A stretch of DNA of 64,000 bases from Selenomonadaceae bacterium. Its GTDB lineage: Bacteria; Bacillota; Negativicutes; Selenomonadales; Selenomonadaceae. The notes under the pieces are model-generated. The model had not been told where the DNA came from, ran no database searches, and saw only the letters and a program-made list of their open reading frames with translations. Position numbers and translations under genes: made by a program. Shown in pieces: positions 14,078 to 26,147 of the stretch; position 1 is the first letter of the stretch; the number at the start of each line of letters is the position of its first letter. The stretch spans positions 1-64,000 of the forward strand of contig JAUNIB010000007.1 of NCBI GenBank assembly GCA_030523645.1, given 5' to 3'.

Positions 14078-14337
14078 TCACCCCTCAGTCGCCTTCGGCG
14101 CCAGCTCCCCTATAGGGGAGCCTTGCTTTGGCATTACCGGTACCCGAAGCCTCCCCTCTAGGGGAGGTGGCCGAGCGTAGCGAGGTCGGAGGGGTAAATA
14201 AAGCGAGTTGCTAGTCTGTTACCCCTCAGTCAGCTTCGCTGACAGCTCCCCTAGAGGGGAGCCTTTGCGGTGTCGTTGACGAAAATAAGCCTCCCATTGA
14301 GGGGAGGTGGCTGAGCGAAGCGAGGCCGGAGGGGTGT
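14078..14337. repeat. family-A palindromic repeat cluster (four units)
   Basis: Four units in alternating orientation (ACCCCTCAGTCGCC.. then CCTCCCCTCTAGGGGAGG.., ACCCCTCAGTCAGC.. and CCTCCCATTGAGGGG..). Each has a CCCC/GGGG hairpin with a GCCTTCGGCG-, CGTAGCG- or GCTTCGC-like spacer. This fills the 309 bases between glmM and cbiK; no gene seen. Confidence 0.87.
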
Positions 14338-18764: not shown

Positions 18765-18837
18765 ATGCAAAAAATATTAAAGGCTCCCCTATAGGGGAGC
18801 TGACGGCGTAGCCGTCTGAGGGGTAAAAGAGGTGACA

Positions 18838-18914
18838 GTAGGGGTCGCCAGCAGGCGACCCGAAATAAAGGGTTTCTTCTGTATCATAGCGGGCTTGCTG
18901 CGGCAAGCCCCTAC
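18838..18914. repeat. family-B palindromic element, copy 3
   Basis: GTAGGGG / CCCCTAC ends with internal GGTCGCC..GGCGACC and GGGCTTGC..GCAAGCCC hairpins, as at 283-359. Confidence 0.8.
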
Positions 18915-19041
18915 AACTTGAAGCCTCCCCTGCCGACACATAAACGCCTCCCCTCTAGGGGAGGTGGCCGAGCACAGCGAGGTCGGAGGGGTAAAATATT
19001 CGTTGAGCGGCGTAGCCGTCTGAGGGGTAAAAGAGGTGACA

Positions 19042-19118
19042 GTAAGGGTCGCCAGCAGGCGACCCGAAATAAAGGATTTCTTCTGTATCATAGCGGGCTT
19101 GCTGCGGCAAGCCCCTAC
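19042..19118. repeat. family-B palindromic element, copy 4
   Basis: Same structure as copy 3, with one change in the left end (GTAAGGG). Confidence 0.78.
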
Positions 19119-19185
19119 AACTTGAAGCCTCCCCTCTAGGGGAGGTGGCACGAAGTGCCGGAGGGGTGACAGAACAAAATTCCCG

Positions 19186-19811: not shown

Positions 19812-19931
19812 AAAGGCTCCCCTATAGGGGAGCTGTCAGCGAAGCTGACTGAGGGGTAATAGCTAAAATAATTTCTCTTTTTACCCCTCCGACCTCGCTA
19901 CGCTCGGCCACCTCCCCTGAATGGGAGGCTT
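19812..19931. repeat. family-A palindromic repeat pair, inverted
   Basis: One unit GGCTCCCCTATAGGGGAGC..GAGGGGTAA and one opposite unit TTACCCCTCCGACC..GGCCACCTCCCC, separated by about 25 bp. Fills most of the Nudix-M50 gap. Confidence 0.85.
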
Positions 19932-19973
19932 TAAGGTTTATATTTAACAACAGCTGGTATTCGGAGGAACATC

Positions 19974-21679: not shown

Positions 21680-22002
21680 AAGCCTCCCATTTAGGGGAGG
21701 TGGCCGAGCGTAGCGAGGTCGGAGGGGTGACTGCTGCTCGGTCTCAAAGCCTCCCATCTAGGGGAGGTGGCCGAGCGCAGCGAGGTCGGAGGGGTAAATA
21801 GAACGAGCTGCTAGTCTGATTACCCCTCAGTCGCCTACGGCGCCAGCTCCCCTAGAGGGGAGCCTACCAGATTGATTAGTAGTTACCCCTCAGTCTGCTT
21901 CGCAGACAGCTCCCCTATAGGGGAGCCTATGAGACGGAATGTAGAAACCTCATCCGTCTCGCTTCGCGAGCCACCTTCCCCAAAGGGGAAGGTCATTAGA
22001 CG
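21680..22002. repeat. family-A palindromic repeat cluster (five units)
   Basis: Units begin near 21682, 21748, 21820, 21886 and 21945, in both orientations, all with the CCCC/GGGG hairpin and a CGTAGCG, GCGCAGCG, GCCTACGGCG, GCTTCGC or CGCTTCGCG spacer. They fill the trpS-scpA gap; no gene seen. The last unit ends about 20 bases before the scpA ATG. Confidence 0.87.
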
Positions 22003-22014
22003 GAATGTAGGATA

Positions 22015-22809
22015 ATGAACGAACAATACAAAGTAAATCTGCCGGTATTTGCCGGCCCTATGGATTTGCTTCTCTCCCTCATCGAGAAGCATAAAATCGA
22101 CATATACGATATCCCTATGGCAGTCATTACCGGGGAATACCTCGACTATCTGGCCAAGATGAAGGAGTTTGCCATCGAGCCGGCCAGTGAATTCCTCGTG
22201 ATGGCGGCGACGCTTCTCCTTATCAAGTCCCGGATGATGCTCCCCAAGGAGCCGAAGCCGGCAGAAGAGACGGAGAACACAGAGGAAGCTGACCCGCGCA
22301 AAGAACTGGTAGAGCGCATACTTGAGTACCGCCGCTACAAGGAGGTCTCCGGTGAGCTGCAGGATATAGCGGAGTCTGCAGGCAGATTTGTGGGTCGTCC
22401 GGCTATGGATATTCCCTGCCGCCGGGTGGCACCGGCCGGACTGAATATTGCTGACCTTATTGCGGCCTTCCGCATCGTGCTGGAGGCAGAGCAGGAGCAG
22501 GAGATACCGGCGGTAATCGTCCCTCGGGAAAGGTATACCGTCGAGGACAGGATGAAATATGTGACTGAGCGGGTGGAGGCCGAGGGTGAGCTGCTCTTTA
22601 CTGAGCTGTTCCGGGCTTATGACCGTGAGGCATGTATCACTACCTTCCTGGCGCTGCTGGAGCTTATCAAGCTGGGAACGGTAGTTGCCAGACAGACGGA
22701 AAACTTCGGGGAGATTGTGATAGGAAAGCCGCAGCTAATCGGACTCGCAGCCTCCCATCTAGGGGAGGTGGCCGAGCGAAGCGAGGTCGGAGGGGTGATT
22801 CTAATATGA
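22015..22809 (+). CDS. scpA: segregation and condensation protein A
   Basis: Kleisin subunit of the SMC-ScpAB condensin, 264 residues. It starts with the family-typical FAGPMDLLLSLIEKHKIDIYD and ends its winged-helix part with FLALLELIKLGTVVARQTEN. From about residue 246 the sequence is no longer ScpA: the last 19 residues (LAASHLGEVAERSEVGG..) are a translated family-A repeat lying at 22749-22797. The repeat thus supplies the C-terminus and the stop, which overlaps the next ATG (ATGA). scpB, the usual next gene, is absent. The core is complete, so function is probably kept. Ribosome binding site weak (TAGGA). Confidence 0.9.
   Translation: MNEQYKVNLPVFAGPMDLLLSLIEKHKIDIYDIPMAVITGEYLDYLAKMKEFAIEPASEFLVMAATLLLIKSRMMLPKEPKPAEETENTEEADPRKELVERILEYRRYKEVSGELQDIAESAGRFVGRPAMDIPCRRVAPAGLNIADLIAAFRIVLEAEQEQEIPAVIVPRERYTVEDRMKYVTERVEAEGELLFTELFRAYDREACITTFLALLELIKLGTVVARQTENFGEIVIGKPQLIGLAASHLGEVAERSEVGGVILI
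22749..22797. repeat. family-A repeat inside the scpA coding end
   Basis: Single unit CCTCCCATCTAGGGGAGG with GCGAAGCGAGG spacer and GGAGGGGT end, in frame within the 3' end of scpA. It is the left flank of the DUF559 gene. Confidence 0.9.
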
Positions 22810-23207
22810 AGTACGAATACCATGACGGATACAACCACACGCTTTGCGGCAATGCCCGTACCCTCCGGAAAAATATGACTCCGGAGGAAAGGCACCTCTG
22901 GTACGACTACCTTCGTAGTTATCCCGTAAAATTCTATCGTCAAAGAGTAATCGATAATTACATAGCAGACTTTTACTGCGGTAACGCAAAGTTAGTGATT
23001 GAAATTGATGGGTCGCAGCATTTTACGAAAGATGGTCAGATTTACGACAGGAAAAGAACAGAGTCGTTAAGCGAGTACGGATTGCTGGTCATTCGTTTTT
23101 CCAACCTTGATATCAAGGGCAACTTTAGAGGTGTCTGTGATATGATTGATATAGAGGTGGCAAAAAGGATAGATAGGAATCCGTGGGAAGGTGAGGAAGG
23201 GAATTGA
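22806..23207 (+). CDS. DUF559 endonuclease-domain protein
   Basis: Protein of 133 residues of the DUF559 family, which has the Vsr/very-short-patch-repair-type restriction endonuclease fold. Family landmarks: LRKNMTPEERHLWYDYLR near 22, FYRQRVIDNYIADFYC near 45 with the putative catalytic Asp, LVIEIDGSQH near 65, and GLLVIRFSN near 95. The ATG overlaps the scpA stop by 4 bp; the upstream extension of the frame is repeat sequence in scpA. It is flanked by family-A repeats at 22749-22797 and 23210-23420. No function is established for this subgroup; nicking or cleavage of DNA is inferred from the fold. Confidence 0.87.
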   Translation: MKYEYHDGYNHTLCGNARTLRKNMTPEERHLWYDYLRSYPVKFYRQRVIDNYIADFYCGNAKLVIEIDGSQHFTKDGQIYDRKRTESLSEYGLLVIRFSNLDIKGNFRGVCDMIDIEVAKRIDRNPWEGEEGN

Positions 23208-23209
23208 AC

Positions 23210-23420
23210 TTCACCCCCCAGTCAGCTTCGCTGACAGCCCCCCTAAATGGGGGCCTGTGGGGTAGGAGCTTCGCTGACAGCCCCCCTAAATGGGGGCCTT
23301 TGGAGGAGGGCTTCGCTGACAGCTCTCCAAATGGCTCAGCGGGGTAGAAGTATCGCCGATATCCCCCTTGCGGACTTTTCTGACCGTCACCTAAATGGGA
23401 GACATTTGAAGGAGTATTCC
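23210..23420. repeat. degenerate family-A repeats downstream of the DUF559 gene
   Basis: Three direct units of about 55 bp (near 23214, 23268 and 23310) with AGCTTCGCTGACAGCCCCCC and AATGGGGGCC parts, the third decayed, followed by a more diverged fragment to about 23405. Sequence differs from other copies (CCCCCC/GGGGG hairpin) and is clearly eroding. Confidence 0.75.
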
Positions 23421-25708: not shown

Positions 25709-25973
25709 CTCGGTCTTTTTCCGCATCTCTGCGTTGCAGCTCGAAGCCCTTGCTTGTGTACCATTAGTACACGGCACTGCGGACTTCATCGCCGCGCCTT
25801 GACCTGCGAAAAAATCCCTTCGCGATAAAAGACTCGGCTTTTTCCGCATGTCTGCGTTGCAGCTCGAAGTCCTTGCTTGTGTACCTTTAGTACACGGCGC
25901 TGCGGACTTCATCACTGCGCCTTGACCTGCGAAAAAATTCCTTCGCGATAAAAGACTCGGCCTTTTCCGCATA
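25709..25973. repeat. family-C tandem repeat, 124 bp x 2 plus partial third
   Basis: CTCGGNCTTTTTCCGCAT begins at 25709, 25833 and 25957 with a constant 124-bp period. Each unit has a central palindrome GTGTACC..AGTACAC, outer arms GAAGTCC/GGACTTC and an end GACCTGCGAAAAAAT. No spacer diversity, so it is not CRISPR; no coding capacity. Confidence 0.88.
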
Positions 25974-26044: not shown

Positions 26045-26147
26045 TAACCTCACCCACCAGCTTCGCTGGTCCCCCCTCTCCAGAGGAGAGGGTCAAGACC
26101 TTCCCCTTTGGGGAAGGTGGCTCGCGAAGCGAGACGGATGAGGTTAT
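26045..26147. repeat. family-A palindromic repeat cluster (last in the window)
   Basis: AACCTCACCCACCAGCTTCGCTGG.. and ..GGCTCGCGAAGCGAGACGGATGAGGTT with two hairpins, the same two-unit plan as 5198-5303. No family-A unit was recognised after this point except a decayed fragment near 41905-41945. Confidence 0.85.

Follow-up and report, generated by a model that had tools for sequence, protein, structure and literature searches.

The locus and the repeats of the window

The window analysed here, meaning the whole stretch of 64,000 nucleotides from a Selenomonadaceae bacterium, carries a DUF559 nuclease gene (22806-23207, + strand, 133 aa product) sited between scpA and sucC. The protein was assigned to PF04480 DUF559 with the Pfam profile at 95.1 bits and E 2.9e-27 (curated cut-off 20.6). 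The features at the locus are as follows.

22015-22809, + strand: scpA; its C-terminal residues ..GLAASHLGEVAERSEVGGVILI come from the left-end repeat, and the ScpA ends of relatives differ
22749-22797, + strand: left end, A-type repeat, matching the left end of homologous units; its parts are hairpin 1 CCTCCCATCTAGGGGAGG, hairpin 2 GGCCGAGCGAAGCGAGGTC (GAA loop, tandem G-A mismatches) and tail GGAGGGGTG
22806-23207, + strand: DUF559 gene, Vsr-like fold (Pfam, AlphaFold2 model, Foldseek)
23211-23257, - strand: right end, B-type repeat, inverted, CCCCCCAGTCAGCTTCGCTGACAGCCCCCCTAAATGGGGGCC, matching the right end of homologous units
23266-23408, - strand: eroding B-type copies 3' of the right end (repeat families D3 and D7, inverted match I19)

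Every repeat consists of two adjacent hairpins and a G-rich tail. The A-type repeat stops about 9 bases before the DUF559 ATG, as had been described in an earlier note on this DNA, and lies within the scpA reading frame, with the last ~20 residues of ScpA encoded by the repeat and the scpA stop TGA (22807-22809) overlapping the ATG of DUF559. The inverted B-type repeat begins 4 bases past the DUF559 stop and is followed by eroding copies up to ~23408. The same note had placed a run of eroding family-A repeats just after the gene; the run is present, and its type had to be corrected to B, in opposite orientation, since the downstream repeat is the inverted B-type partner right end. The A-type and B-type palindromes around the gene do not stand there by chance; they form the two ends, left and right, of a single unit. 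Within this genome scpA and scpB (G000:C9:160173-160643) are far apart, and in relatives the sequence directly after the scpA stop resembles the start of scpB.

A pattern scan of the window located copies at ~5.25 kb, at 12.4-14.3 kb, at 18.8-23.4 kb and at 26.0-26.1 kb; from 26.2 to 64 kb it gave none that was convincing. The description of the first 26 kb as saturated was thus loose. A search of the window against Rfam returned no family covering the repeats. Four of the copies or pairs of copies are relevant to the argument below.

14147-14268, + strand: gene-less miniature unit, A+ then B-, with a 29-nt spacer GTAAATAAAGCGAGTTGCTAGTCTGTTAC
19812-19932, - strand: gene-less miniature unit, B+ then A- (A+B- on the other strand), with a 29-nt spacer
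21747-21865, + strand: gene-less miniature unit, A+ then B-, with a 30-nt spacer
26097-26145, + strand: C-type repeat with GGATGAGGT tail, the left-end class of the genome's second DUF559 lineage (cognate genes L001 and L002)

Direct duplications were also observed in the window, namely two adjacent copies of 123 nt at 25715-25960 (94% identical) and two copies of 128 nt at 18804-19135 (98% identical, 204 nt apart).

Two patterns detected 151-179 dispersed palindrome copies in the window's own genome (2.31 Mb), in which all four high-scoring DUF559 genes have such repeats nearby; three of the genes lie between repeats, and at the fourth an A and a B copy are both found past the same end. A 461-kb sample of this genome contained 11 adjacent A+B- pairs with a spacer of 22-32 nt and the end order of the gene-bearing unit. 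Judged by their sequence, these gene-less pairs look like non-autonomous derivatives. In another genome, G228, a miniature spacer TTGCAGTTCACTAATATCTATCGATGATAAAAAGCAA matches, at its start and end, the sequences adjoining the ends of the DUF559 unit; miniature spacers vary, and therefore not all of them are plain deletions of the gene.

Association of DUF559 genes with the repeats

Eighty homologous DUF559 loci, mostly from Clostridia with some from Negativicutes, were taken from a genome-contig scan. In the 400 nt on each side, 55 of them had a two-hairpin repeat upstream, 69 had one downstream and 47 had both, and repeat density was 2.12/kb near DUF559 vs 0.171/kb more than 1 kb away (the scan gave 36 hits in composition-shuffled DNA vs 354 in real DNA). 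Control ORFs of 90-250 aa were taken from the same loci, and DUF559 genes proved to be flanked far more often than these genes of similar size, a comparison that the earlier note had proposed: 32/72 testable DUF559 genes vs 0/299 controls had a repeat on each side at a distance of up to 150 nt, and 67/72 vs 28/299 had one on either side. Five DUF559 matches of low score, each Vsr-like or a domain within a large protein, served as negative controls, and none was adjoined by a two-hairpin repeat of this kind.

The DUF559 gene is surrounded by terminal inverted repeats and is the sole gene in a unit of 445-510 bp, with no transposase within the element; the modal length, 445-446 bp, was found at 14 of the 34 loci having both ends. 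The commonest unit has the left end GCCTCCCTTGTGTAAAGGGAGGTGGC-hairpin2-GACGGAGGGA and, inverted, the right end GGCTCCCTTGTGTAAAGGGAGCTGTC-hairpin2-GACTGAGGGA, and its outside boundary falls between AAA and GCC on one side and between GGC and TTT on the other. No GTAG or CGTC tag was found at the hairpin foot, where the conserved boundary is AAAG/CCTCC and its mirror. Matches between the two flanks of 27 units, scored as possible target-site duplications, were no longer than in shuffled pairs, one array excepted.

Across 300 Negativicutes genomes, 58 of which have a full-length DUF559 (E <= 1e-15), at least 20 copies of the A/B pattern were counted in 17/58 DUF559 genomes vs 0/242 others (p = 8.6e-14), and at least 6 copies in 24/58 vs 12/242 (p = 1.9e-11); genomes were treated as independent and are phylogenetically non-independent, so both p values are optimistic. 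A reversed-pattern control mostly gave 0-2 hits per genome. The 17 repeat-rich genomes span 12 genera and all carry DUF559, which comes out in favour of the relation between repeats and gene that the earlier note had proposed to count across genomes. Within genus g33, two DUF559 carriers have 62 and 79 copies and 13 non-carriers have 0-6. In G243 and G042, two genomes with fewer copies that had initially been counted among those without DUF559, broken remnants of the gene lie beside repeats, and ten further genomes with 6-19 copies gave neither an intact DUF559 nor a remnant (the remnant search excluded G150). The earlier note had held that a genome rich in repeats and devoid of DUF559 would speak against the link; the wording fits one genome alone, G002, a fragmented MAG outside the 300 with 69 copies and no DUF559 found, which is 79% complete, in about 280 contigs, and has many of its repeats at contig ends. 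Where a DUF559 genome is without the A/B pattern, the gene is in most cases adjoined by two-hairpin repeats of another class, and in some DUF559 genomes (e.g. G138) the scan gave no clear flanking repeat.

Mobility, cognate end classes and the nuclease

Over ~460 nt, units of different species share as much as 97% of their sequence, and their flanks show hardly any similarity or none; 146 neighbour proteins fell into 136 clusters, of which 126 were singletons. Unoccupied sites were found in two genera. Between the rplQ terminator and the gene that follows it, G243 of genus g90 carries a 461-bp unit whose DUF559 is frame-broken; at this site the congeners G203, G224 and G255 have ~98 nt of intergenic DNA, with the rplQ-side DNA 97-98% identical. 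In genus g33, G228 and G233 hold an array of ~1.1 kb (miniature unit, DUF559 unit, miniature units) where G039, G069, G076, G141 and G172 have a short intergenic region. From these shared unoccupied sites we infer gain of the unit, with boundaries resolved to a few nucleotides because the intergenic DNA has diverged. Two DUF559 copies stand in tandem in G242. The intergenic DNA of g33 is very labile between genomes that are roughly 88-94% identical, with several other repeat types beside terminators (L193, L196, L220-L224), and was too labile for clean indels to be called between G228 and G233.

An AlphaFold2 model of the window protein (pLDDT 87, pTM 0.80) was compared with solved structures using Foldseek. 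The nearest solved chain was 3hrl (6.2e-6), and a match was also obtained to the Vsr-like homing endonuclease I-Bth0305I (3r3p, 4e-4). D55, D68, H72 and D81 are invariant in 48 aligned rows and E66 is nearly so, and the protein is under purifying selection (median dN/dS 0.078, 97 pairs).

A homing endonuclease among the nearest folds, together with the position of the DUF559 gene at the spacer of A+B- pairs, would suit an explanation by homing, under which the enzyme cuts the spacer of gene-less pairs or repeat-free sites, the gene is copied in by recombination, and the palindromes are targets of separate, older origin. We consider this unlikely. Whole units, both ends included, enter sites that are repeat-free in congeners, and in g33 repeat counts rise with the nuclease, so that the palindromes themselves multiply.

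Repeat tail class was then mapped on a tree of 105 DUF559 proteins, requiring 13 changes vs 34.6 with shuffled labels, and one clade of the TGAGG class unites Clostridia and Negativicutes. Both classes occur in the window's genome, where the window gene and L004 use A/B ends and L001 and L002 use C/D ends; two lineages with two repeat classes in one genome are more than host phylogeny by itself would account for. Hairpin 2 was represented by 74 distinct sequences among 126 ends, with 94.6% of the inner positions paired vs 47% with arms shuffled. Its loop is GNA in 88/126 copies (70%). GNA/GCGAAGC hairpins are unusually stable as DNA, and a loop reading GNA rather than TNC points to the strand running inward from each end as the one that folds.

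These cognate classes also bear on the idea that a HUH/RAYT or other enzyme spreads the palindromes and that a nuclease gene with another job was caught in one composite copy. RAYT-REP is a known precedent (PMC3116915, PMC2817692) and Y1_Tnp proteins are common (157/300 genomes); repeat class nevertheless tracks the DUF559 tree, gene order and spacing inside the ends are fixed across two classes, and six repeat-rich genomes (G025, G013, G014, G282, G302 and G151) are without a Y1_Tnp match. We regard such hitch-hiking as quite improbable, and a HUH/RAYT (Y1) transposase was rejected as mobiliser on the missing matches in several repeat-rich genomes. The window's genome has a single marginal Y1_Tnp match (E 5.5e-4), and there the repeat-flanked gene is DUF559.

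It is extremely unlikely, in our estimate, that DUF559 is a defence or repair nuclease of the host, with the palindromes acting as terminators, mRNA stabilisers or an RNA partner (cf. type III toxin-antitoxin). Weak similarity of DUF559 to DpdF and a methyl-directed restriction enzyme agrees with such a function, as does the location of many repeat copies after genes. Inverted repeats on both sides, presence/absence polymorphism, unrelated neighbours and lineage-specific ends are none of them expected of a terminator or antitoxin.

Matching repeat ends probably also surround related DUF559 genes in other phyla, for which the loci collected here are a lead and not a census. In Deinococcus psychrotolerans (L155 1893-2366) a DUF559 gene inside the paa operon has perfect 45-bp inverted repeats (control maximum 12), and that of D. 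proteolyticus (L154) is bracketed by perfect inverted repeats of 22 bp. At the DUF559 loci of Sphingomonas and Sinorhizobium there are palindromes that are found again on plasmids from related genera. The ycjD gene of E. coli K-12 (L163 6408-6761; also L164), which is present in 3365/5426 complete E. coli genomes, has its 3' end within a palindrome. The sequence on the gene's 3' side is a dispersed repeat, with a median of 16 sites per E. coli genome, and probably resembles the Box C element. E. coli was tried and set aside as an empty-site system, the ycjD-lacking strain examined having an RND efflux locus at this position and no clean empty site. Cyanobacterial DUF559 loci gave no clear unit ends. 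On two cyanobacterial plasmids (L160 and L162) DUF559 lies beside DUF1156 genes, with a DUF499 gene nearby in L162, and the fold may there serve another, system-linked purpose. DUF559 with similar two-hairpin repeats also occurs on contigs of gut phages or viruses (L161 3807-4357, L005 and L006), which are a possible vehicle for the units between hosts.

Proposed element and comparison with known systems

We think it probable, from sequence comparisons, that gene and palindromes together constitute a single family of small mobile elements with cognate repeats, most likely a REP/RAYT-like selfish element whose enzyme would be a Vsr-like nuclease. The suggestion in the earlier note that gene and repeats travel together as one selfish unit is well supported by the sharp boundaries in unrelated contexts, the orthologous empty sites and the cognate repeat classes. 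The full unit, of about 445-510 bp, would comprise a left end (A or C), DUF559 and an inverted right end (B or D), and the gene-less A+B- pairs would be non-autonomous derivatives spread in trans by DUF559. As single-stranded DNA, the strand running inward from each end may fold into two hairpins, whereupon DUF559 would recognise the end class via its tail and cut at the hairpin or close to it. Once released or nicked, the end would be copied into intergenic DNA that is AT-rich, with no duplication of the target and perhaps with the help of host repair or replication enzymes. Such an element would be the functional counterpart of REP/REPIN and RAYT, with a Vsr-like PD-(D/E)XK nuclease replacing the HUH transposase.

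Many bacterial palindromic repeat families are without a known mobiliser. RepRanger names no associated nuclease (PMC12306157), and CGTC REPs were reported without a dedicated transposase in a study of GTAG and CGTC elements (PMC3733652). If DUF559 mobilises the G-rich two-hairpin repeats, an uncharacterised multi-phylum family would gain a function and a class of repeats an explanation, and at about 450 bp the unit would be among the smallest candidate autonomous mobile elements. The presence of matching ends at related nuclease genes of many gut bacteria suggests, at the level of sequence, an undescribed kind of selfish DNA. More tentatively, and with somewhat more doubt than conviction, we put forward that this may be a categorically new class of bacterial mobile element. 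In it, DNA with hairpin ends would be mobilised by a lone Vsr-like PD-(D/E)XK nuclease of ~120 residues, no DDE, HUH, serine or tyrosine transposase being involved, and a set of orphan palindromic repeats in several phyla, among them the one beside E. coli ycjD, would have this nuclease as its dedicated source.

DUF559/PRK09767 proteins, among them E. coli YcjD and N. gonorrhoeae 3hrl, belong to the same family as the window protein and share with it, in the case of ycjD, a dispersed repeat at the 3' flank. The family is annotated as of unknown function, and a link to palindromic repeats is absent from the open-licence PMC literature searched, in which no report connecting DUF559/PF04480 with REP, RAYT or palindromes was found; earlier work elsewhere is possible. 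With I-Bth0305I the nuclease shares similarity of fold and the character of a free-standing selfish gene, but the unit described here lies outside introns and inteins, has palindromic ends of its own and is accompanied by many dispersed copies that lack the gene. Insertion sequences with MITE derivatives likewise have a gene between inverted ends and gene-less derivatives with the same ends, whereas the present element is without a DDE transposase or target-site duplication above chance and is about 450 bp in total. The closest parallel is REP/REPIN with RAYT (TnpA-REP), which has in common with it short, dispersed, intergenic palindromes, often in inverted pairs, a full copy holding a small nuclease gene bracketed by palindromes, a repeat class that follows the nuclease lineage, and no target duplication seen. 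It differs in that RAYT is a HUH tyrosine transposase and the enzyme here a PD-(D/E)XK Vsr-like nuclease, in that the ends here have two hairpins and a G-rich tail without the GTAG/CGTC tag of REPs, and in that left and right ends here are unlike each other (A/B, C/D).
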